This document shows positions 3,958 to 15,085 of a stretch of 36,100 nucleotides of DNA, one piece after another. Source of the stretch: Synergistaceae bacterium (GTDB taxonomy: Bacteria; Synergistota; Synergistia; Synergistales; Aminobacteriaceae); the NCBI GenBank assembly GCA_031280635.1, contig JAITGK010000038.1, positions 1-36,100 of the forward strand, read 5' to 3'. Position 1 is the stretch's first letter, and each line of letters begins with the position of its first letter. The notes under the pieces are model-generated. The model did no database searches. It was not told where the DNA came from and was given only the letters and a program-made list of their open reading frames with translations. The translations under genes and the position numbers were made by a program.

Positions 3958-4069
3958 TTCAGGGGTTCAGGGGTTCAGGGGTTCAGGGGTTCAGGGGTTC
4001 AGGGGTTCAGGGGTTCAGGGGTTCAGGGGTTCAGGGGTTCAGGGGTTCAGGGGTTCAGGGGTTCAGGGG
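3958..4069 (+). repeat. 8-bp tandem repeat, 14 copies, GGGGTTCA
   Basis: A 112-bp perfect array of the unit AGGGGTTC, with no interruptions and no spacers. Because the unit is not a multiple of three, all three plus-strand frames read through it, giving a false GFRGSGVQ-repeat open frame. Four-G runs separated by TTCA fit the pattern for G-quadruplex formation on the plus strand and its RNA. Perfect identity points to recent expansion by slippage, so the copy number is likely to vary between cells. Confidence 0.97.
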
Positions 4070-4306: not shown

Positions 4307-6190
4307 ATGAGACTTAGGTCAACAGTCAAATGGGCGCTGGTGGTGTTGTTGCTGTTACTTTTCGCGGCGTTGGTGGTGGCCACGGCGCGGGAGGCCGTCG
4401 TGGCAAGCAACGTCTCCAACACCGCGGCCTTCCACGAGCTTTCGGGAATCCAGGGCGCGGACACGACGCAAAACGTCGCTCAACAGAAAAAGGTCATGGA
4501 CGCGGGCAAGGAGGCGGAGGCCAAAGAGCTGGCCGAGATACGCCAGAAGAAGGTAGGGCACTTCAGGGTCATCAGCGCGGCTCAGGAGGCCCAGAACAAC
4601 TACTACAAGGCCAACACCGAAGGCGGGGACATCTCCGCTCGCCGCGCCGAGCTGGAGCAGCGCATCCCAGAGGCCCGCGGCTCTTTGGAGGAAGTTCGGC
4701 TGCTGACGGACAGGGAGGTCGCCATTTTGGAGGAACTCGGCAACAGCGAGGCCGCCATTTCCATCGCGAGGTCTTTTTACAAGGCCTTGGAAACCACCGT
4801 CAACACGCTCCAAGTGGAGGACTTGACCGAGCAACAGATGGAAGAGCGGGAGAAAAACATCCGTATAGCGGGTAACAGCGCCATAGCCACGGCCCACAAC
4901 ATGGCCCGCGGCTTCAGACAGAACGATATGAACGAGGAGGAAAAGACGACGCTGGACAAGGATGTGGTGGAGCCGGGAGAAAAGGCCGTGAAGGGCCTGG
5001 GGTCCGTGCTCACCAACATGCCGCAAATCATCTGGGCCTCGTTCCAGGGGCTTTCAGAGAGTTACAACGTGGCCACCCAAGCCTTGAAGAGTTACCAGAA
5101 CGCCCAAGGCGGGTTGGGGCAGATGTTGCACGACCTCAGTTACAACCAGGGGATGTTCAGTCGCGGCAACATGAGCGCCTATCAAAAGCGACTGGACGCC
5201 TTCAGCGCGGGCGTTCAGCAGTTCCTGGGAACCTATTCCCCCTTCGTAAAGACCGTGGGGCAGAGCATCGGACGCCAGGCGAACCTGGACGCTATGGGAT
5301 ATGGGGAAAACGTCGTCATTCGGTTTGCCGACGCCTACAGCCGCCTCTACGTCGTGAGTGAAAACGACCACATGCGCGTCCTGGTGGACAAGACCAGAAC
5401 CCAATGGGGTGACGGCGACCACGAGGTTCGCACGATGATCATCTACGAATACGACGACGAGGGAGTCGAAGACGCCGTGGAGGACATTGAGCAGTTCGCC
5501 CCCGGCTTCTCGCGCTATATCCGGGACTCGCGCATCGTTTACATTTATCGGGGTTACCGACCCTCTGTCTGGAAAGCCTTTCTGTACGAGATCAACTTCC
5601 AGGACGCCAATGGACAGGAGAGGTACCACTATAGCGACCCCACCATTCCCAAGGGAGATTTCATCCGCAGACACTCCTGGGACAGCGAGGTCTTGGAGAA
5701 AATAGCGGTGCTCACGCCGCCCAAAGACCCCAGCGTGTTCCGCGGACGCTTCGGGGACAGGGTCGTGCCCAAAAAGGGCGGAGAGAACACGGCAACGCCA
5801 GCGGGAGACAAGAAGCCCAAAAAGGAAACGCCCAAACCAGGGGCAAAGCCGTCCAAAGTGTCGAAGAAGGGCTCGATCCAGCCTCCCACCGAGGGAGTCG
5901 AGTTATTTAACGGCTTTGACCTCGACGAGGCACAGAAGTCCGCCCTCGTGGAAGAGCACAACAAGGGCGTCGAGAACTACAACGCGGGCAAGTACGCCAT
6001 CGCCGCGCGGCAGTTCGGGCGCGCGGCGTCCATGCACAAGGAGAACCACCTGGACGCTTACTGGGCGGCGCTGGCCGCGCACAACGCCAAGAACAAGGCG
6101 GGCGCGAAAGAATGGTTGGATCGCTGCGTCGGCATCAAGGGCGACTATCTGCCCGCGCTTGAGATGAAAAAGGCTCTGGGCCTGAAATGA
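4307..6190 (+). CDS. Membrane-anchored periplasmic coiled-coil/TPR protein of unknown function
   Basis: A 627-residue protein, first gene of the exported CHAT locus. The in-frame ATG at 4307 is chosen because GGGAGG (4291-4296) precedes it and the product then begins with a charged stretch and a hydrophobic helix (about 8-26). That helix is either a signal anchor or an uncleaved signal. Residues about 40-300 are highly charged and helical, with likely coiled coils. Residues 300-480 look like a mixed globular domain that I do not recognise. A Lys/Pro-rich linker (about 488-530) leads to a C-terminal TPR-like unit (about 545-627, NKGVENYNAGKYAIAARQF). The Lys/Pro linker and TPR recur in the downstream proteins, which suggests that they work together. 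A terminator candidate follows directly. No catalytic motif is visible, so a scaffold role is an inference. Confidence 0.85.
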   Translation: MRLRSTVKWALVVLLLLLFAALVVATAREAVVASNVSNTAAFHELSGIQGADTTQNVAQQKKVMDAGKEAEAKELAEIRQKKVGHFRVISAAQEAQNNYYKANTEGGDISARRAELEQRIPEARGSLEEVRLLTDREVAILEELGNSEAAISIARSFYKALETTVNTLQVEDLTEQQMEEREKNIRIAGNSAIATAHNMARGFRQNDMNEEEKTTLDKDVVEPGEKAVKGLGSVLTNMPQIIWASFQGLSESYNVATQALKSYQNAQGGLGQMLHDLSYNQGMFSRGNMSAYQKRLDAFSAGVQQFLGTYSPFVKTVGQSIGRQANLDAMGYGENVVIRFADAYSRLYVVSENDHMRVLVDKTRTQWGDGDHEVRTMIIYEYDDEGVEDAVEDIEQFAPGFSRYIRDSRIVYIYRGYRPSVWKAFLYEINFQDANGQERYHYSDPTIPKGDFIRRHSWDSEVLEKIAVLTPPKDPSVFRGRFGDRVVPKKGGENTATPAGDKKPKKETPKPGAKPSKVSKKGSIQPPTEGVELFNGFDLDEAQKSALVEEHNKGVENYNAGKYAIAARQFGRAASMHKENHLDAYWAALAAHNAKNKAGAKEWLDRCVGIKGDYLPALEMKKALGLK

Positions 6191-6193
6191 ACA

Positions 6194-6217
6194 AGGGGGG
6201 CCTTCCCTCCTTCTTTT
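6194..6217 (+). terminator. Candidate intrinsic terminator after the 4307 gene
   Basis: AGGGGGG and CCCTCCT pair (one G-U) around a CCTT loop, followed by TTCTTTT. It begins four bases after the stop codon. The T-run is interrupted by one C. Confidence 0.5.
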
Positions 6218-6218
6218 C

Positions 6219-6277
6219 ATAGCCCATTCGCGTAGCTGAACGCAAACAGCAAAAATTTCGCGCGGAAAAGAGCCAAG
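6219..6277 (+). repeat. Dispersed repeat family R, copy 2 (internally deleted)
   Basis: The two ends of family R are recognisable (ATAGCCCATTCGCGTA and GCGCGGAAAAGAGCCAA). The middle with the first GCGCGGAAA box is missing. It sits between a terminator and the promoter of the DUF4384 gene. Confidence 0.65.
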
Positions 6278-6295
6278 TAAAAACCGCTCTAAGAT

Positions 6296-6304
6296 TGGTA
6301 TAAT
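6296..6304 (+). promoter_or_regulatory. Extended -10 promoter of the DUF4384 gene
   Basis: TGGTATAAT, identical to the element at 3949-3957, lies just behind repeat R copy 2. Transcription would start near 6311 and give a leader of about 140 nt to the ATG at 6452. Confidence 0.55.
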
Positions 6305-6410
6305 CTTCAATGCGCGGTCAAGGAGGTGGGGGTCGGCGGACGTGGGTAACAGCGGATAATGAGGAGAAGAGCGTGGAGCGGGAGGGGCCTGGCTTGTGCT
6401 TCTTTGGGAA

Positions 6411-6428
6411 CCGGGGTCGCGTCCCCGG
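6411..6428 (+). promoter_or_regulatory. GC-rich leader hairpin before the DUF4384 gene
   Basis: CCGGGG and CCCCGG form a perfect 6-bp stem with a 6-nt loop. It ends 23 bases before the ATG and just ahead of the ribosome binding site GAAAGGGGA. The core GGGGTCGCG resembles the inner hairpin of repeat family E, so it may be a fragment of such a repeat. It could influence translation; no ligand-type riboswitch is recognised. Confidence 0.35.
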
Positions 6429-6451
6429 AATTTACGAAAGGGGATTTTGTT

Positions 6452-7426
6452 ATGAGGAAATTTATTGGGTTGTTGTTGGCAGCGGCGTTATTGGCGGGAA
6501 ACGTCGCCTGGGCGGACATCAAGACCAGCACTACCACGGCCACGCGGGATATTCTGCTGGTTGACGAGGACGAACCCGCGCTTGCCCAGACGAAGGTCGA
6601 GGAGATGTCCCAAGGCGACTTCGCCGTGTCGCTTTCCACCGACAAGAAAGACAGCGTTTACAGTTCAGGCGAGAAGATCGTTCTGACCTTCAAGTCCGAG
6701 AAGGACTCCTATCTGACCATTCTGGATTTCACCCCCAGTGGTCAGATCGTGGTACTGTTTCCCAACAAGTGGGTGGAGAACAACTTCGTCAAGGCCGGTC
6801 AGGAGATAAAAATCCCCGCCGAGGGGCAGAAGTTCGCCATGAGAGCTGGAAACGCCGTGGGGGTGGACGTGGTCAAGGCCATCGCTACGGAGAAAGACGT
6901 CCAGGTGTTCAACCTCGACAACAAGCAGCTCGCCGGCCCCTTCTCCGTCCTTCAGGACGCTAAGATGGGAACGCGGGACATCCTGCTTTTCGAGGAAGAG
7001 GCTGAGTCCGCTTCGGCGACAGACCCGCTGAAGTGGACCGTGGCCTCTCTCGCCCTGATGACGAAGGGTGACGGCCCCTCTGGCTTCGCGACCGCGGACG
7101 GCCAGGAAGCGGCGGTCAAAATGTGGACCAACGTGGCAAGCTACTTGACGGGGGACAACGTCTTCGTCAAGTTCTTGAGCGACAAGCCCGGCAAGCTGGT
7201 TTCCCTGGTCAACATCGGCGCCAGCGCGTCGGAGAACAACCTGTTGCCCGCGGACGCGGACGTGTCCTTGAAGGCCGGGGAAATTCTCGTCCTGCCCCGC
7301 AAGGACGATAAGTGGAAGCTGGTCGCGTCGGGCAAGGCGGGCAAGGACATCGTGAAAGGAAAGCTGGCGTTTGACGACGGCACGGAGATGGAACTCGCTC
7401 TTGAAGTGACCGTCGAAGAGGATTAA
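6452..7426 (+). CDS. Exported protein with two DUF4384-like domains
   Basis: A 324-residue protein with a classical signal peptide (RKFIGLLLAAALLAG, cleavage after AWA near residue 21). The ATG at 6452 is preferred over upstream in-frame starts because GAAAGGGGA precedes it and the signal peptide begins there. Residues about 56-150 fit DUF4384: a VYSSGEKIVLTF strand, a SYLTILDFTPSGQ strand, then VLFPNKW, an AGQEIKIP turn and a terminal VVKAIA strand. The second half (about 190-320) shows the same plan more loosely (DNVFVKFLSDKPG, AGEILVLP, GKDIVK). Each half is preceded by a TRDILL plus acidic segment, consistent with an internal duplication. From family knowledge DUF4384 is often fused to or encoded beside caspase-like proteins, which fits the CHAT protein two genes downstream. 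It is followed after 12 bases by the next gene and is probably cotranscribed. The binding partner is unknown. Confidence 0.85.
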   Translation: MRKFIGLLLAAALLAGNVAWADIKTSTTTATRDILLVDEDEPALAQTKVEEMSQGDFAVSLSTDKKDSVYSSGEKIVLTFKSEKDSYLTILDFTPSGQIVVLFPNKWVENNFVKAGQEIKIPAEGQKFAMRAGNAVGVDVVKAIATEKDVQVFNLDNKQLAGPFSVLQDAKMGTRDILLFEEEAESASATDPLKWTVASLALMTKGDGPSGFATADGQEAAVKMWTNVASYLTGDNVFVKFLSDKPGKLVSLVNIGASASENNLLPADADVSLKAGEILVLPRKDDKWKLVASGKAGKDIVKGKLAFDDGTEMELALEVTVEED

Positions 7427-7438
7427 CGTCGGTTGACG

Positions 7439-8830
7439 ATGAAGACCAAAACGCTTGGGGTTCTGCCCCAAACCGCGCTGAAGGGTCCTGGGCCCTTCAG
7501 CCCTCTGTTTCAGCGCATACCATGCCTGGCGCTCCTTTTCGTGACCCTTTTGTTCCTTTTAACACCACTCTCCCTCTCCTTCGCCGCCGCTTCATCCAAC
7601 ACGACGCTGATGGAGCGGGCCAAAAACCTTTACTCCATTCAGGACTACAACAACGCCCTGACGCTGTTCGAGAAACTTCTGACGATGGAGCCGGAGAACG
7701 GCGAGGCCTGGGACTACGCGAGCTGGTGCCATCGCTATTTAGGGAACTGGAACCAGGCGCGCCAGGGATTCGAGCGGGCGGAGACGCTTTTGCCGGGCGC
7801 GGAGGCCAAATGGGTTAAGGTGGGACTGGGTGAGACGTTCCTGGGAGCCGGGCAGGGAGGCAATTCCGCTCGAGCCTTTTCTGAGGCCATCGAACTGGCG
7901 CCGGAGGACAACGAGTTGGTGGTCCGGTCGCTGAAGGGCCTTGTTCTGGCGCGCGCCTCCATGGGGGAAGCCCCCCAGATGGAGGAAGCCCTGAACCGCC
8001 TGAAGGAGAAAGACGCCGCCGCCGCTGAGATCATCAAGAACGACGCCACGACGCTCTTGGAGAAAAACAAGCCCGCGGAGCCGGGGAAGAATCCGGAGGA
8101 GGATGAATCCCCCAAACCCGAGCCGGGGGAGCTGACAGACCTGAGTGCGCGCCAGTGGCTGGCCGCCAAGAGCGTGGTCTGGGTCAAGAAACCAGCCTCC
8201 CCCGAAGCCCAGGCCGCTCAGGATACCGTGCCCAAAGAACCTGTGAATGACGTGTCGGTCGCGGAGCCTACCTCTTCGCCAGAGGATGAAAAAACGCCGG
8301 AGGGCAAAAAAGCGCCGCTTGTGGTTTGGGGTCTCCCTGTTGGGGAGCCCATTCAGGCCGCGGTGGTCCAATTGGTCGGAGAGGAGATCGAGGTACAAAA
8401 AAACGAAGAGCCTACGAAATTCGGCTCCTGGTTCTACACGGCGAAACTTCCTTACTTCTCGTCCCTGCTGCCGGAATTGGCGCGGACGGACGCGGACTCA
8501 GCGCTTCTTATCTTGGAAGAGTACCAGGAGAAGCTACTCTCCATAAGCGTCACCGCCACGTGGAAGGAGCGCAAAAACAGCATAAGCCTGAAGGAAGAGC
8601 TTTTTGTGGAGCTGTCGGGTAAGCTTGGCCAGAAATATGGCCCCTCCGCGGGCCTCAACGATAATGGTATCTTCGCTGAGGCGCAGTGGGTTCCTGACGA
8701 CAAACGCTTCATCGCCCTGGAGGTCACGGCGGGTCTGGACGGGCAGGTCGTCTTGAACGTCAGCTACAGCGACCTTCCAGGTTTGAGCGTTTTCTGGGAA
8801 GAAACCGCGCAGACCAGCGAGCGAAAGTGA
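7439..8830 (+). CDS. Exported TPR protein, paralogue of the 13874 gene
   Basis: A 463-residue protein. The ATG at 7439 is chosen; a TTG two codons earlier is possible, and neither has a strong ribosome binding site, so coupling to the preceding gene (12-bp gap) is likely. The signal peptide is odd: about 28 residues precede the hydrophobic core (CLALLFVTLLFLL), and cleavage is near FAA. That long first part is encoded by a copy of repeat family E. Residues about 56-190 form TPR units (ERAKNLYSIQDYNNALTLFEK, WCHRYLGNW). A Pro/Glu/Lys-rich linker (about 200-290) follows, then a C-terminal domain starting at VVWGLPVGEPI. The same three-part plan and close sequence similarity occur in the protein encoded from 13874. 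A strong terminator follows. The function is unknown; a periplasmic scaffold is likely. Confidence 0.85.
   Translation: MKTKTLGVLPQTALKGPGPFSPLFQRIPCLALLFVTLLFLLTPLSLSFAAASSNTTLMERAKNLYSIQDYNNALTLFEKLLTMEPENGEAWDYASWCHRYLGNWNQARQGFERAETLLPGAEAKWVKVGLGETFLGAGQGGNSARAFSEAIELAPEDNELVVRSLKGLVLARASMGEAPQMEEALNRLKEKDAAAAEIIKNDATTLLEKNKPAEPGKNPEEDESPKPEPGELTDLSARQWLAAKSVVWVKKPASPEAQAAQDTVPKEPVNDVSVAEPTSSPEDEKTPEGKKAPLVVWGLPVGEPIQAAVVQLVGEEIEVQKNEEPTKFGSWFYTAKLPYFSSLLPELARTDADSALLILEEYQEKLLSISVTATWKERKNSISLKEELFVELSGKLGQKYGPSAGLNDNGIFAEAQWVPDDKRFIALEVTAGLDGQVVLNVSYSDLPGLSVFWEETAQTSERK
7445..7519 (+). repeat. Repeat family E, copy inside a coding sequence
   Basis: When compared with the inverted form of 8888-8983, about 75 bp align with roughly two thirds or more identity. 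Shared features are CTTGGGG, TGCCCCAAACC, the AGGGTC palindrome and the end TTTCAGCGC. The copy keeps the reading frame and encodes the stretch before the signal-peptide core. Inner palindrome arms CTGAAGGG and CCCTTCAG remain perfect. Confidence 0.65.
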
Positions 8831-8850
8831 ACGTGGAGACAAACCAAAGC

Positions 8851-8887
8851 GGGGGTGAGGCCAAGGCGCGGCTTCATCCCCCTTTTT
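8851..8887 (+). terminator. Strong intrinsic terminator after the 7439 gene
   Basis: GGGGGTGAGGCC pairs with GGCTTCATCCCCC (one bulged A, one G-U) and is followed by TTTTTT. It closes the DUF4384-TPR transcription unit 20 bases after the stop codon. Confidence 0.85.
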
Positions 8888-8983
8888 TAGGGAAGCGCTG
8901 ATTAAATGGGGTTCTTAGGGGTCCGCGACCCCTAAGTCGGGGTTTGGGGCAAGGCCCCAAAGTGTTTGATCAGCGTTTCCTTA
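8888..8983. repeat. Repeat family E, full-length copy with inverted ends
   Basis: A 96-bp palindromic element. The left end TAGGGAAGCGCTGATT is inverted at the right end GATCAGCGTTTCCTTA. Inside lie two further hairpins (CTTAGGGGTC against GACCCCTAAG, and TTTGGGGC against GCCCCAAA). It begins immediately after the terminator and runs directly into repeat R copy 3. It is non-coding; the layout resembles a miniature inverted-repeat transposon or a REP-type element. Confidence 0.75.
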
Positions 8984-8999
8984 GAGCCATTAGCTCTTT

Positions 9000-9067
9000 T
9001 AGCCGTTGGCTCTTTTACGCGCAAAGTTTTTACCGTTTTCCGCGCGTGATTGCGCAATCCGCTATAG
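9000..9067 (-). repeat. Dispersed repeat family R, copy 3 (inverted)
   Basis: An inverted copy: read on the minus strand it starts CTATAGCGGATTGCGCAATC, with one GCGCGGAAA box and AAAGAGCCAACGGCT at the end. The middle part is shortened. It ends only five bases before the ribosome binding site of the CHAT gene, so that gene's leader, and perhaps its promoter, lie in repeat DNA. Confidence 0.75.
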
Positions 9068-9083
9068 GTATGGAGGAAGCAGG

Positions 9084-12000
9084 ATGAAGACAAGGACAAA
9101 GTTTTTTGTGGTTTTGACCCTTTGCCTCGCGCTTTTGAGGGGGACGGCCTGGGGCGCGGAAGGGGACGCGCTCTTCAACAAGGCGATAGCCGCCTACCAG
9201 GCGGGAAAGTGGGTAGACGCCGCCGAGGCCTTTGGGCAGGCGGGCGAGGCCTATGAAAAGGAAAAAAACAACCTGAAGGCCGCGCAGTGCTACTATAACC
9301 AAGGATTGTGCCTGAACGCCGGACCCCAAACGGAGCCTGCCGTCGAGGCCTTCGAGCGGGCCGCGCCCATTTACCAAAAAATAGGCGATGCCGTGGGGGA
9401 GTGCAACGCCCGCTTCTCCGCCGCGCAGATTCATATGGCCGCCGCCCGGTGGGACAAGGCCGAGGAGCACTACACGCGGGGCGTTAAGATCGCCAAGACC
9501 CCGCTGTTGCGGGGGCTGGCCCAGGAGGGGGCGGGTCGCGTCCATCGGGAAAAAGGGGCTTTGGACGCGGCGGAAAAATCTTTCAAATCGGCGGAAAGGC
9601 ACTTCAAAGACAATCTGGGCAGCCGGTTAAGGGTGAGACTACAGTTGGCCTACATCACCGGTCTGCAGGGAAACATCCTCGAAGCGCTTAAAATCTACGA
9701 CTCCGTCGCCGCCGACGCCGCCGCTCTTCAAAAAAACGAAAAGACCCGCGCCGAGGGCAACAGACTCGTTTTTTACGCTTTGAGCGACAAGGGAACCCTT
9801 TTGCTGACCACCGGTTGGTTCTCCGAGGCGCAGAAGACCCTAGCCGAGGCTCTGACGGCGGCCGATGATCTGGGGACGCCCTACGCCCCGGAGGTTCTGG
9901 GCGCGAAAAATAATTACGCCGAGACCTTCATGTACCTGGGGGACTTCGACAAGGCCGAGGCGGAGTTGAGCGAGCTTTTGAACGTGGCGGTGGGGTCGAG
10001 GAACGAGGTTTTGACCCTGGAACTCAACGCGGAGCTGGGGGTGCTGAACCGCATGAGGGGCCGCTACGAGGACGCCTTGACCTTCTTTCAGGGATTCAAG
10101 TCCAGGGCGGAGAAAGCCGGTTTGGGGCAGCGCCTCGCCCAGGCCTACATCCAGTTGGGCAACCTGTACGGACACACCGGTGTTTGGAACGAGGCGGCGA
10201 CCCACTACCAGGAGGCGTTCTCCGTCGCCCTCAGGGCGCGAGACATGGACAGCGCCCTGCTGGCCATGCAGGGCATCTACGCGGGGGACATCCGAAGCGA
10301 GCTGGGGCTTGTGGGCAAGGTGGATTACCGGTCGGCGCAGGGCCTTCCATGGCGAGCCGCGCTCACGGCGCGGACGTTCAGCGATAAGCAAGATACAGGT
10401 TTCTTAATGGCATGGGAGAAGGTGGACTCCTTGCGGAAGGAAATCTTCGCGCCCATCCCCAGCCTGGACGGGTTCCGCCTGATCCGCGAAATGGCCTTCC
10501 GGGGCGCTCCCGAGATACGCCACTACTATCAAGAGGCCAAGACAGCCTGGGACGTGGGGGACGCGACGCTGCGCCGGGCGGCGGGGCGCCTGCGGACGGC
10601 GCGAAGCGCGGAGAAGGCGCTTCTAGAACTGGCCGCTCGCGTGGGGGAGGCCGCCGACCGCCAGTACGTTCAGCGCGCTTTCTCCACATCCCTGGACCTC
10701 CTGCGCGCTCTGGCAGGTGAGGAGACGTTATCCGCTCCCAAGGAAGGCGTGTTCATTCAGATCGGCGGGATACTCCTTGACGCGACGGACCCGGAGGAAC
10801 AATCCGCCGCCGAGGCCGCGAAAGCCGGAACCCTGGAGGCGGACCTTAGAGCTTTGTCGCGGATGGTTCCGCTGCTGTCCCTGAAGCCAGCCGAATCCGA
10901 CAGACTCCAAAAGGCCCTGATCGCCGGCGAGCCCTTCCCCGGTCCCATGAGGGACAAGCTGAGAAAAACCCTTTTCTCTCAAGCCCTCAAAGCGACTCCC
11001 TCCCGTGAGGAGTTGCGAAAGACCCTTCTGAGGCTCTTGGAAACCACTCACCCCTCGCTGAAAAAGGATGCTGGGAGCCTGGCTTCCCAAGGGGGTAAAC
11101 TCTATAGTTATGCCAAGAAAAAACTGAAAAATCAGCAGGAGCAGTTGGAGAAGGACGCCGAAAAACTGCTTCCGCGGACCTCGGAGTATCTTCTGCTCAC
11201 CCTGGGCGCTGGAGAGGATATCCTCGCCTACCTGGACGCCTGGCGGGACGTCCGCCGCCGCGTTCTTGTCCTGCGGGAGGTCGGGGTGTCCCTCAAGGCC
11301 AACAGAAATTGGGAGGCGTTTTTAGCCCAGTTCGGGGACGCCGTCACGAAGGGCAAGAGCGCCTTCAAGTCCTCCTTCGCTCTAACCCCAGAGAAATCGG
11401 ACGCGGCGGCGGTGAAGAAACTTCGGGCCCTGGCGGAGAAACTGGCCCTGCTGGAGCTGCGGGAGGAGGCCGAAAACATCACGGGCCTTCTGGCGGCGGA
11501 GGGAAAGGTCTCCCATGACGACCGCCTGGCCCTTCTGGAGCTGCAGTCCCGCGTTTTTTACGCCCTCTCCGAGCCCGCCAAGGCGGAGGAGTTGGCCAAA
11601 AAGCTGCTTACCCTCGTGAGCGGCCCCGGAGGCCAGCCCACCGAGGCCCGGCCCGACGCGCAGTGGCGAGCCTACGCCCTGCTGGCCCAGACCGCGGAGG
11701 ATCGGAAGGACTACGGCAAGGCGCGGGATCTGTACGCCGCGGCGCTTTCCCAGGTGGAGAAAATCCACCCGGTGGAAGGGAACGCCAGCCAGAGCGCCTC
11801 CGACCGGGTCGCCCTTTACGGCGGGGCCATCCGCTCCGCCTTTGCCCTGTGGCGGGACAACCCCTCCGCCAAAGCCGCTGAGAACATCTGGAGTCTATTG
11901 GAGGGCATGAAAGGCCGCCAGTGGAGGGAGATGCTGGCCACCACGGGCGGGGAGTTCCTGAACGCCCTGCCGCCTGAGGTCCGCGCCCAGGTGCGGGAGC

Positions 12001-13523
12001 TGGAGATGAAGCGGGTGGCCTTGGAGGGCGCGTACCGCCGGGCCAGCTTCGAGGGGCAGCGCGAGGTGATGGCTCAGGTCAACGCCGACATGAAAAGCCT
12101 GCGGGAAAAACGCGCGAAGCTGACTCAAGGCCTGACGGTGGACGTGGACGCCATACCAGGAACCGAAGCCACGCGGGCCCTGCTGCCCCAGGACTGGGCC
12201 CTGGTTGACTATTACCTCTCATCCTCCCTGTCCTTTGCCGTTATGCTGAGAAAAGAGGGAGAACCCAAGATCGTTCCCCTCGACGTGGACTACGACTCCC
12301 TCTTTGGCTACGCCTATTGGATGCGTTACACTGTGCCGGATCAGATATATGAATACCAGCAGGACAAGATTAGCCAGAAACGTCCCGTCACCGCCTGTGG
12401 ATTGTTGCCGGAGGACGTGGGAAACGTCCTTTTCCAGCCTGTGGCCGCCGAGTGCGGAGATTTGAGGAAGCTCTTGATCATCCCTCACGACATCCTCTAC
12501 ATCCTTCCCTTTGAGGCCATGCGGCGTACCGATAAGGACAACAAAGTTTACCTGATCCGGGACTGGACCTTCGCGGAGCTGCCCAGCGCGTTTTTGCTGA
12601 CCCGTCCGGCAGCGCGGGCAATCGGGCCGGAGGATGGAAAGTCCCTGCTTTTGCTGGCCAACCCGGCCTACGGAAAGTTGTTCCGGAAGGTGGACGGCGA
12701 GACATGGAGCGAATTTTCAGGAGCGTGGCGGAGCGTCATCAAGCACAACCCAGAGATGCGGGCCGCCCTTGAGGAACACGTGAAGGACGCGCCTTTGTCC
12801 CGACTTACCGCCTCCAAGGCCTCGCCGGAGGAACAGAAGGCGTTTAGAGACATCCTGGAGGCGGCCTGGAAGAAAATCCTCTCCGAGACGGAGAAGGAGG
12901 CGAAATGGGCCTCCGTGGTCAAGGAGGACTTCGCGCAGTCAATGAAACCGCTGCCGGGTTCCCAGTTCGAGGCCGACATTTTGACGAGGCTGTGGGAGGA
13001 AAAGGGCGCTCCCGCTCCCGTCCTGTTGCTGGAGGAACGCGCCTCGGAACAGGTCTTCTGGGAGAGTACCCCCGCGCGGTTCCGCTACGTCCACATCGCT
13101 TGCCACGGGTACGACCGGGGAAGCATCCCCGACCTTCAGCCGGGGCTGGCCCTCTCGCCCGTCCTGGACCTTCACAACGACTCATTCCTGCAAATGGGGG
13201 AGCTGGCCACCGTCCGGTGGGACGCGGAACTCATCAGCCTGTCCGCCTGCGAGACGGGGTTGGGAGACCTCTACGTGGGAGACGGCATGTTTGGGCTCTC
13301 CACGGTGCTGCTGGCGGGCGGGGCCAAGGGCTCCATCCTCACCCGGTGGCGGGCCGTGGACGAGAGCGCCCCCATCCTCATGGAAAAAATGTACTCCGCT
13401 ATCTTGGACGGCGCGTCTCCCGTGGACGCCCTCCGTCGGGCCCAGTTGTTCCTGTTGGACGAGGATTCCTTCAAAGCCCCCCAGCATTGGGCCCTCTTCA
13501 AATACGTCGGCATCCCCTGGTAG
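9084..13523 (+). CDS. Exported TPR-CHAT protease-like protein
   Basis: A 1479-residue protein. The ATG at 9084 has GGAGG seven bases upstream and opens a typical signal peptide (KTRTKFFVVLTLCLALL, cleavage near AWG/AEG). Residues about 25-420 hold some eight or nine TPR units. The middle (about 420-1000) is mainly helical with further TPR-like and coiled-coil parts (NQQEQLEKDAEKLL). The C-terminal CHAT domain (about 1025-1479) has the caspase-like dyad: His1341 in VHIACHG and Cys1389 in LSACETGLG, plus the conserved AGGAKGSI and HWALFKYVG segments near the end. Both catalytic residues are intact. CHAT is a clan CD cysteine peptidase fold known from separase-like, gasdermin-linked and TPR-CHAT (Craspase) proteins, which are mostly cytoplasmic. 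This one is predicted to be secreted to the periplasm, which is unusual. The substrate is unknown; neighbouring TPR or DUF4384 proteins are candidate partners. Confidence 0.93.
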   Translation: MKTRTKFFVVLTLCLALLRGTAWGAEGDALFNKAIAAYQAGKWVDAAEAFGQAGEAYEKEKNNLKAAQCYYNQGLCLNAGPQTEPAVEAFERAAPIYQKIGDAVGECNARFSAAQIHMAAARWDKAEEHYTRGVKIAKTPLLRGLAQEGAGRVHREKGALDAAEKSFKSAERHFKDNLGSRLRVRLQLAYITGLQGNILEALKIYDSVAADAAALQKNEKTRAEGNRLVFYALSDKGTLLLTTGWFSEAQKTLAEALTAADDLGTPYAPEVLGAKNNYAETFMYLGDFDKAEAELSELLNVAVGSRNEVLTLELNAELGVLNRMRGRYEDALTFFQGFKSRAEKAGLGQRLAQAYIQLGNLYGHTGVWNEAATHYQEAFSVALRARDMDSALLAMQGIYAGDIRSELGLVGKVDYRSAQGLPWRAALTARTFSDKQDTGFLMAWEKVDSLRKEIFAPIPSLDGFRLIREMAFRGAPEIRHYYQEAKTAWDVGDATLRRAAGRLRTARSAEKALLELAARVGEAADRQYVQRAFSTSLDLLRALAGEETLSAPKEGVFIQIGGILLDATDPEEQSAAEAAKAGTLEADLRALSRMVPLLSLKPAESDRLQKALIAGEPFPGPMRDKLRKTLFSQALKATPSREELRKTLLRLLETTHPSLKKDAGSLASQGGKLYSYAKKKLKNQQEQLEKDAEKLLPRTSEYLLLTLGAGEDILAYLDAWRDVRRRVLVLREVGVSLKANRNWEAFLAQFGDAVTKGKSAFKSSFALTPEKSDAAAVKKLRALAEKLALLELREEAENITGLLAAEGKVSHDDRLALLELQSRVFYALSEPAKAEELAKKLLTLVSGPGGQPTEARPDAQWRAYALLAQTAEDRKDYGKARDLYAAALSQVEKIHPVEGNASQSASDRVALYGGAIRSAFALWRDNPSAKAAENIWSLLEGMKGRQWREMLATTGGEFLNALPPEVRAQVRELEMKRVALEGAYRRASFEGQREVMAQVNADMKSLREKRAKLTQGLTVDVDAIPGTEATRALLPQDWALVDYYLSSSLSFAVMLRKEGEPKIVPLDVDYDSLFGYAYWMRYTVPDQIYEYQQDKISQKRPVTACGLLPEDVGNVLFQPVAAECGDLRKLLIIPHDILYILPFEAMRRTDKDNKVYLIRDWTFAELPSAFLLTRPAARAIGPEDGKSLLLLANPAYGKLFRKVDGETWSEFSGAWRSVIKHNPEMRAALEEHVKDAPLSRLTASKASPEEQKAFRDILEAAWKKILSETEKEAKWASVVKEDFAQSMKPLPGSQFEADILTRLWEEKGAPAPVLLLEERASEQVFWESTPARFRYVHIACHGYDRGSIPDLQPGLALSPVLDLHNDSFLQMGELATVRWDAELISLSACETGLGDLYVGDGMFGLSTVLLAGGAKGSILTRWRAVDESAPILMEKMYSAILDGASPVDALRRAQLFLLDEDSFKAPQHWALFKYVGIPW

Positions 13524-13632
13524 GGGGCCCGTTCAAAGAGCAACCGGGAAATCCCTCCCGTTGACCGAGGCATAGGGGCAAAGCAAACGGCCAACGGGAG
13601 CGGAATCCTCGCTTCCCTTGTGGAATGGAGGG

Positions 13633-13680
13633 TTAAGGAAGCGCTGAACCGGGGGCTTCGCCCCATGCCCCGGAACCCCA
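13633..13680 (+). repeat. Repeat family E, truncated copy
   Basis: It begins TTAAGGAAGCGCTGAAC, the family E end, followed by GGGGGCTTCGCCCC as in the first inner hairpin. The second half is missing. It joins directly to repeat R copy 4, the same E-next-to-R arrangement as at 8888-9067. Confidence 0.55.
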
Positions 13681-13681
13681 T

Positions 13682-13848
13682 TTATAGCGGATCGCGTAAT
13701 CACGCGCGGAAATGAGAGACCAAAAGCCGGACATAGCGAATCGCGTAATTATGAATATCAAAATAGCGCTAAAAAGCTCATAACCACCGTCAAAGTTTTG
13801 TTCAGAAAAGAGCCGACGGCTCCAAACGGCAAAGACTTTGCGAAGAGT
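13682..13848 (+). repeat. Dispersed repeat family R, copy 4 (expanded)
   Basis: It starts TTATAGCGGATCGCGTAATC with GCGCGGAAA and GAGAGACCAAAA, then repeats the motif ATAGCGAATCGCGTAATTATG. It ends with AGAAAAGAGCCGACGGCTC and a second AACGGCAAAGACTTTGCG. At about 165 bp it appears to be two merged or partly duplicated R units. Confidence 0.7.
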
Positions 13849-13873
13849 CCACGACTTTAAGAGGGAAGAAACC

Positions 13874-15085
13874 ATGATGAGAAAAGTTGCTTTATTTTTG
13901 CTGGCGGCGCTGCTGTTTCCGGTGGCGGCGGTGGGGGCGGACGCGGAAAGGGCGCTGCGCGAGCGCGCGAAGAACCTCTATGATGTGGGGGACTATCGCA
14001 TGGCGTTGAACCTTTACGAAAGAATTTTGGAGCGAAACCCCAAGGACGGCGCGGCGCTGGACCTTTCCGGCTGGTGCCTCCGCTACCTGGGCGATCGGAA
14101 GAGCGCGGAGGAGCGATTCGAGAACGCCCTGACGTGGTTGAGCGGCGAGGACGCCGTGTGGGTGCTGATCGGCTTGGGAGAACTTTACTTGGACGGGAAC
14201 CTCTACGACAAGGCTCAAACGCGTCTGGAGGAGGCTCTGAAAGTCGCGCCGAGCAACGCCGAGGCCGTCGAGCGAGCCGCGCGAGGACTGACGGCAGCCA
14301 GGAAAAACCTGGAAAAAGCCGCGTCAACGCCGGCAACAATGACGACGGCGCTGGACAACGCGGACGACCGGAAGTTGCAGGCGTTTCGTCCCCAGATTGA
14401 CCAAGTCGACTGGACGTCCCCAGAGGAAACGCCGAAAGAAGCGCCTGAGGAAACACCGAAAGAAGCGTCAAAGGAAGCGCCCAAGAAAACGCCAAAGGAG
14501 ACGTCAAAGGAAGCGCCCAAGGAGACGCCAAAGGAGACGCCAAAAGAGAAACCAAAGGAAAAACCGCGCGAAAAACCGAAAAAACCTGAAAAACCGGCTC
14601 GGCGCGAGGTTGTTTATGGAGTGTCCCTGGGGGTAGACATCGAAACGGCGCTGGCGGACTTAGAAAGAGCCGGACACCCGCTCGCGGACGAACCTTTCAC
14701 CAAAGCGGGTAAGGTCTACTATCTCCTGCGAGGACTGCCCGCGAGGCCGCCGCGTTCCCTGAACAGCGAAGCGACGCGCTTCTACATCACTGCCTACAAC
14801 GGCGCGGTACTGTCGGTCATCATCCAAACGAGCTACGGCAAGGAGCGCTCCTTTGACGAGGTGAAGGAGCTTCTACGGGAGACCCTGGCGGAAATAGGCG
14901 AAAGAGACGCGCGGGGACTCAAGATAACGGAGAACATTTTCAGCTACGAGATGAGCCTGGCCCTCTCCAACTCTCACGGGCTGTGGCTCAGCGCGGTGGA
15001 CAAGGCCAACGGCAGCAGCTTGGTGGAAATCGAACACATCGATCTGGTCAACGTGAGTCACTACTGGATGGCTGGTGGAAGGTGA
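13874..15085 (+). CDS. Exported TPR protein with Lys/Pro/Glu repeat linker
   Basis: A 403-residue protein, paralogous to the 7439 gene product. The ATG at 13874 has GAGGGAAG just upstream; a second ATG follows directly. The signal peptide is short (RKVALFLLAALLFPVAA, cleavage near VGA). TPR units cover about 25-140 (ERAKNLYDVGDYRMALNLYER, WCLRYLGDRK, GLGELYLDG). A low-complexity linker (about 183-242) of four-residue units such as ETPK and EAPK follows, then a C-terminal domain from VVYGVSLGVDI to the end. The paralogue has the matching VVWGLPVGEPI start, so the C-terminal domain is shared too. The end overlaps the 3' end of the opposing uvrC gene by 25 bp. The gene is separated from the CHAT gene by repeats but is most likely part of the same system. 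No enzyme motif is seen. Confidence 0.85.
   Translation: MMRKVALFLLAALLFPVAAVGADAERALRERAKNLYDVGDYRMALNLYERILERNPKDGAALDLSGWCLRYLGDRKSAEERFENALTWLSGEDAVWVLIGLGELYLDGNLYDKAQTRLEEALKVAPSNAEAVERAARGLTAARKNLEKAASTPATMTTALDNADDRKLQAFRPQIDQVDWTSPEETPKEAPEETPKEASKEAPKKTPKETSKEAPKETPKETPKEKPKEKPREKPKKPEKPARREVVYGVSLGVDIETALADLERAGHPLADEPFTKAGKVYYLLRGLPARPPRSLNSEATRFYITAYNGAVLSVIIQTSYGKERSFDEVKELLRETLAEIGERDARGLKITENIFSYEMSLALSNSHGLWLSAVDKANGSSLVEIEHIDLVNVSHYWMAGGR
14419..14596 (+). repeat. Degenerate 12-bp tandem repeat coding a Lys/Pro linker
   Basis: About fifteen units of a 12-bp pattern like GAAACGCCGAAA encode ETPK, EAPK, EASK and EKPK. The number of units is in frame, so expansion or loss would only change linker length. 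Such Lys/Pro/Glu linkers are common in periplasmic proteins that span the cell-wall layer. Confidence 0.85.

Follow-up and report, generated by a model that had tools for sequence, protein, structure and literature searches.

Gene content of the locus

The window, by which we mean the whole stretch of DNA that was analysed, comprises 36,100 nucleotides of contig JAITGK010000038.1 (assembly GCA_031280635.1), one contig of the 187-contig, 2.8 Mb genome of a Synergistaceae bacterium whose close relatives by sequence are metagenome-assembled genomes of the same family. An initial annotation had placed five successive plus-strand genes in it, encoding exported proteins, and the open reading frames are found at those positions. 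We call them g1 to g5. The g1 gene (4307-6190) encodes a helical protein with a predicted inner-membrane signal-anchor helix (residues ~5-37), a linker rich in lysine and proline and a C-terminal TPR-like module. The product of g2 (6452-7426) has a signal peptide followed by two units, each comprising a TRDI motif, an acidic linker and a DUF4384 domain. In g3 (7439-8830) a signal peptide or anchor precedes a TPR region, a variable linker that includes LTDLSARQ (residues 232-239) and a C-terminal domain. The largest gene, g4 (9084-13523), encodes 1479 residues with a signal peptide, a TPR array and a CHAT peptidase domain, and g5 (13874-15085) is a paralogue of g3.

All five genes begin with ATG, and a Shine-Dalgarno-like sequence of at least four bases is present for g1, g2, g4 and g5, while that of g3 extends to three bases only. 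The intergenic spacing is loose in the window (12-350 nt), but mostly below 100 nt in relatives. The ratio of nonsynonymous to synonymous substitution rates measured against a sister species is 0.17-0.22 for all five genes, indicating purifying selection. A search for RNA families returned none.

Export signals were called from hydrophobicity and sequence, without a trained predictor. There is a hydrophobic N-terminal stretch in each of the five products, and a basic n-region with a hydrophobic stretch opens nearly all the homologues of each protein, in agreement with the signal peptide or membrane anchor that had been ascribed to all five. On this basis the signal peptides of g2, g4 and the g5-type proteins appear to be of the cleavable Sec kind, and g1 looks like a signal anchor.

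Co-inheritance of the five genes

Using the 1479-residue g4 protein as query against 101 genomes we found 12 homologous loci besides that of the window. In all but L039, g4 is accompanied by g2, by g1 and by one or more genes of the g3/g5 type. The L039 locus is truncated at a contig end, and in that genome g1, g2 and the start of g4 sit together at one end of a second contig (L079). The g1, g2 and g4 genes are adjacent in every locus not interrupted in this way. Profile searches were extended to 188 Synergistota genomes in 63 genera. The g2 profile was found in 16 genomes and that of g4 in 14, and the 14 are a subset of the 16. Thus the homologues do not occur independently of each other, as they might have done had the genes been unconnected. 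The genera are identical for the two proteins (9 of 63), for which the probability by chance is 1/C(63,9), or ~4e-11, when calculated by genus and ignoring relatedness. Two genomes have g2 without a full match to g4; in G160 the g4 gene is broken by a contig end, and the other is G023, discussed below. Searched with its N-terminal 320 residues (in G023 with the C-terminal half), g1 was found in the same 16 genomes, at a contig end in G008, and as a distant homologue in G080. When 84,980 genomes were scanned with a single protein, a search that reaches close relatives only, just two loci were returned, both in Synergistaceae.

It had been proposed that the five genes would be found together and in the same order in related genomes. 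They are together, but the order varies. The window has the order g1 g2 g3 g4 g5, while L032 has g2 g3 g4 g1 g5, L038 has g1 g4 g3 g2 g5, and four loci from one genus (L034-L037, genus labelled g9) have g2 g1 g4 with a single g3/g5-type gene. Flanking genes are common to small subsets of the loci only. With the order shuffled, the flanks not shared and the gaps short, the set behaves as one functional module, and variable order is a stronger argument for joint function than fixed synteny would have been. A gene set that is rearranged yet inseparable is best explained by joint function.

One genome (G021) holds two divergent copies of the locus. The g4 protein of one copy (L033) is 77% identical to that of another genus (L031), but only 50% identical to that of the second copy in its own genome (L029). 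Transfer between lineages is likely. No mobile element was identified.

The CHAT protein

Within g4 the CHAT domain (PF12770) is matched at residues 1113-1476 with E = 6.9e-47 and a score of 160.7 bits, compared with a curated cut-off of 24, and Pfam TPR is matched as well. The predicted catalytic residues are His1341 (codon 13104-13106, plus strand, within HIACHGYDR) and Cys1389 (codon 13248-13250, plus strand, within SLSACETGL). The initial annotation had noted that this dyad is intact in the 1479-residue protein, and we find in addition that both residues are unchanged in 12 of 12 homologues, within the motifs HxxCH[GA]YDR and LSAC[EDN]TGL, down to ~30% identity. Identity to the g4 of the window is 53-85% in the segment 1290-1479, 26-84% in the TPR part and 16-67% between residues 1200 and 1290, so that the catalytic segment is the most conserved part of the protein. 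An invariant dyad located in the best-kept region is what one would expect if the enzyme is active, and we predict from the sequence that g4 is an active peptidase. Essentially all the g4 homologues have signal-peptide-like N-termini, judged by hydrophobicity. Sequence searches of the PDB with the CHAT part of g4, and with g2, gave no informative match.

The DUF4384 protein and its TRDI motifs

The g2 protein contains two DUF4384 domains (PF14326, E = 6.9e-31), scoring 79.4 and 32.8 bits, both above the Pfam cut-off of 27. Each is preceded by a TRDI motif, usually ATRDI[VLIM]L, and then by an acidic stretch of variable length. The first motif is ATRDILLV (residues 30-37; 6539-6562, plus strand) and the second is GTRDILLF (residues 173-180; 6968-6991, plus strand). 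TRDI is kept at 34 of 34 sites in 17 g2 homologues, with both sites present in the 12 sequences that defined the motif and in five further sequences; 10 of the 34 sites thus come from sequences outside the definition. The residues that follow TRDI differ in the g2 of L075. A degenerate DNA pattern encoding TRDI and two hydrophobic-type codons, with only CGN codons allowed for arginine, matched the 2.8 Mb genome at the two g2 sites and nowhere else. Pfam DUF4384 was found in 10 of 61 Synergistota genomes scanned, there exclusively in the g2 of this locus and in partial g2 copies in G023. Two DUF4384 proteins from elsewhere, one of Deinococcus and one of Rhizobium, lack TRDI. The motif could be a docking peptide, a site of cleavage by g4 or a structural piece of the duplicated unit. 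Arginine is a frequent residue after which peptidases of this clan cut, and we regard cleavage at TRDI as a hypothesis.

The TPR paralogues and the anchored protein

TPR repeats had been ascribed to four of the five proteins. Pfam finds them in g3 and g5 as well as in g4, while the fourth case, g1, is weak by Pfam. A structural model of g5 has a confident TPR domain (residues 20-151), a linker of low confidence (153-241) rich in lysine, proline and glutamate that is presumably disordered, and an alpha/beta C-terminal domain (242-400) of moderate confidence. Among the matches listed in a fold search with g5 there were only generic TPR domains, including peptide-binding TPRs such as that of CHIP. 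The linkers of g3 and g5 carry a motif [LV]x[DN]xx[ED]R[QHK], present in 18 of the 20 sequences first examined.

The N-terminal ~320 residues of g1 are conserved across all the loci. At its C-terminal end there is a match to TPR_16 that lies below threshold (E = 0.005), and the same region is all-helical in the structural model. This TPR-like module recurs at the C-terminal end of other exported Synergistota proteins (e.g., in L064 and L065), in most of 97 genomes, and is thus a phylum-wide envelope module. Its carriers include a CsgG-like protein and an M48-type metalloprotease, the family names being assigned by eye.

Relatives of g1 and g2 are found beside exported proteases of other types. 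In G080 the distant g1 homologue lies in an operon-like row of genes on the minus strand (L078, 1478-10336) with FHA proteins including TM2-FHA, an exported vWA-FHA protein, an exported trypsin-FHA protein and a Ser/Thr kinase with Sel1 repeats. This row is possibly a trans-envelope signalling protease system. On a plasmid of Rhizobium sp. Pop5 an exported DUF4384-OmpA protein adjoins two exported peptidases, a caspase and a trypsin-caspase fusion (L141, 4881-10285). Both arrangements are consistent with g1-type proteins and DUF4384 proteins acting as partners of exported proteases. DUF4384 matches were also present on 87 Rhizobium plasmid records.

Neighbouring genes and other observations

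The flanking genes for a histidine kinase, UvrC and GlgC were considered as members of the set and rejected, as they are not conserved at the locus. A neighbouring cluster of exported proteins was also rejected; it lies beside the locus in three cases, yet its 22 genomes include some that have the locus and others that lack it. That cluster (L028, 1097-6914; L030, 480-6332; L075, 10523-16432) encodes five to six exported proteins, one weakly FlgT_N-like and one with TPR. The genome of the window also encodes another TPR-CHAT protein (L041, 203-4288; start missing), and immediately after it comes the gene for a caspase (Peptidase_C14) that seems to have a signal peptide. A perfect tandem array of 14 copies of the 8-mer TTCAGGGG (3958-4069), which could differ in length among strains, lies ~240 nt upstream of g1.

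Comparison with known systems

The best-characterized TPR-CHAT protease is that of Craspase (Csx29, with Csx30). Like g4 it has a TPR array, a C-terminal CHAT peptidase with a His/Cys dyad, and dedicated partner proteins encoded alongside. Craspase is, however, intracellular and RNA-guided through gRAMP/Cas7-11, whereas the present set has signal peptides, DUF4384 and membrane-anchored helical partners, and no CRISPR genes among its neighbours. We found no gRAMP/Cas7-11 among the neighbouring genes of the window that were scanned, nor any such family common to the flanks of the loci; with that partner lacking and export signals present, the module is not Craspase. The four partner proteins of g4 have no Pfam gasdermin match.

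Eukaryotic separase (C50) also combines helical repeats with a C-terminal peptidase and is a structural relative of bacterial CHAT (PMC9729208), but it is intracellular and cuts after ExxR. As at our locus, the Rhizobium plasmid genes pair an exported DUF4384 protein with a neighbouring exported peptidase of the caspase fold; they differ in that the peptidase is a C14 caspase rather than CHAT, the single DUF4384 is fused to OmpA, and both TRDI and g1 are lacking. The G080 operon has a g1-family protein beside an exported protease, but one of trypsin type, and lacks CHAT and DUF4384.

In a literature search, with most subscription journals outside its scope, no paper linked the CHAT domain to DUF4384 or to Synergistetes, or a 'CHAT protease' to the periplasm. 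Within the limits of that search, we found no earlier description of a module of this TPR-CHAT kind.

A proposed exported proteolytic module

We consider it somewhat more probable than otherwise (a probability of roughly 0.55) that the five genes encode a single exported proteolytic module, in which a periplasmic CHAT endopeptidase works with g1 as its anchor, with adaptors of the TPR type and with g2, its regulator or substrate. In this scheme g4 would be a separase- or caspase-like cysteine endopeptidase of the TPR-CHAT type, exported by Sec to the periplasm and held there in a latent state. The g1 protein would be fixed in the inner membrane by its anchor, the helical body lying outside, and would hold the complex and act as a membrane-bound hub or sensor. 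The g3 and g5 proteins may be recruiting TPR adaptors of the periplasm that bind g4 or its clients, each with a C-terminal domain on a flexible linker, and g2 could be a regulator of g4 or, probably, its first substrate. An envelope signal would switch on g4, which would then cut its partners, most likely g2, within exposed linkers, resulting in a change in the envelope or the release of a signal. Such a module might serve to remodel the envelope, to signal stress or to defend the cell. We infer the periplasmic complex, and proteolysis of the neighbours by g4, from the invariant dyad, the TRDI motifs of g2 and the presence of related partners beside other exported proteases.

Several observations weigh against this reading. 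In G023 (75% complete) a short contig has g1-g2-g3-g5 with no CHAT gene between g3 and g5. The structural model of g1 is poor, with a mean confidence score (pLDDT) of 49. The g3/g5 linker motif was found in strict form in only one of seven held-out sequences, and in six of the seven once it had been relaxed after the fact, so it serves as a lead only. TRDI may be a mere part of the duplicated DUF4384 unit. Furthermore, Craspase orthologues cleave at non-conserved sites (PMC11106740), and the separase residue that binds the P1 arginine is missing from the Craspase TPR-CHAT protein (PMC9729208), so that a conserved arginine motif is not necessarily a site of cleavage.

The strongest alternative, although we think it unlikely, is an exported conflict module, i.e., a defence system like those of the TPR-CHAT or caspase-trypsin type but placed in the envelope, in which g1 senses attack by a phage or competitor and the protease triggers damage or lysis. 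This overlaps the proteolytic module in mechanism, and differs in purpose. It would account for the patchy distribution (16 of 188 genomes) and for the presence in one genome of two divergent loci, of which one most resembles that of another genus, and the location of a g1 homologue within a vWA-FHA-trypsin-kinase operon is in keeping with it. In conflict systems of bacteria, CHAT and caspase domains serve as effectors (PMC10907252). On the other hand, no system-specific model of PADLOC 2.0 was matched, only generic TPR models, and none of the window genes scanned was recognized as a defence gene. There is no toxin or pore-former among the five proteins, and the phage records contain no match to g1.

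Less probable still, CHAT might be retained as a fold or binding platform in an envelope scaffold, with the five proteins building or maintaining an envelope structure without proteolysis. The abundance of TPR and linker regions, the lack of a known substrate and the occurrence of the g1 C-terminal module on CsgG-like and M48-type exported proteins would agree with this. But the dyad and its surrounding motifs are invariant across homologues that are ~30% identical, and the catalytic segment is the best-conserved part of g4. A chance neighbourhood of ordinary exported TPR genes is highly improbable. TPR and signal peptides are common and the genes of the window are loosely spaced, but in all homologous loci the genes are inherited together in rearranged order, and their distribution already contradicts such a reading.

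A more specific version of the proteolytic module is speculative, and we think it improbable as a whole. Here a TPR-CHAT protease in the periplasm, served by a dedicated membrane sensor and by TPR adaptors, would respond to an envelope signal by cleaving its DUF4384 partner at the two invariant TRDI sites, as an envelope-side counterpart of switching of the separase or Craspase/Csx30 type.

If the proteolytic module is correct, a conserved exported TPR-CHAT protein with fixed partners would extend regulation of the caspase and separase type to the bacterial envelope. DUF4384, found in these relatives only together with a CHAT gene, would gain its first function, and a concrete candidate substrate motif would be at hand. 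That exported proteases elsewhere are paired with g1-like or DUF4384 proteins suggests that the module may belong to a wider class.

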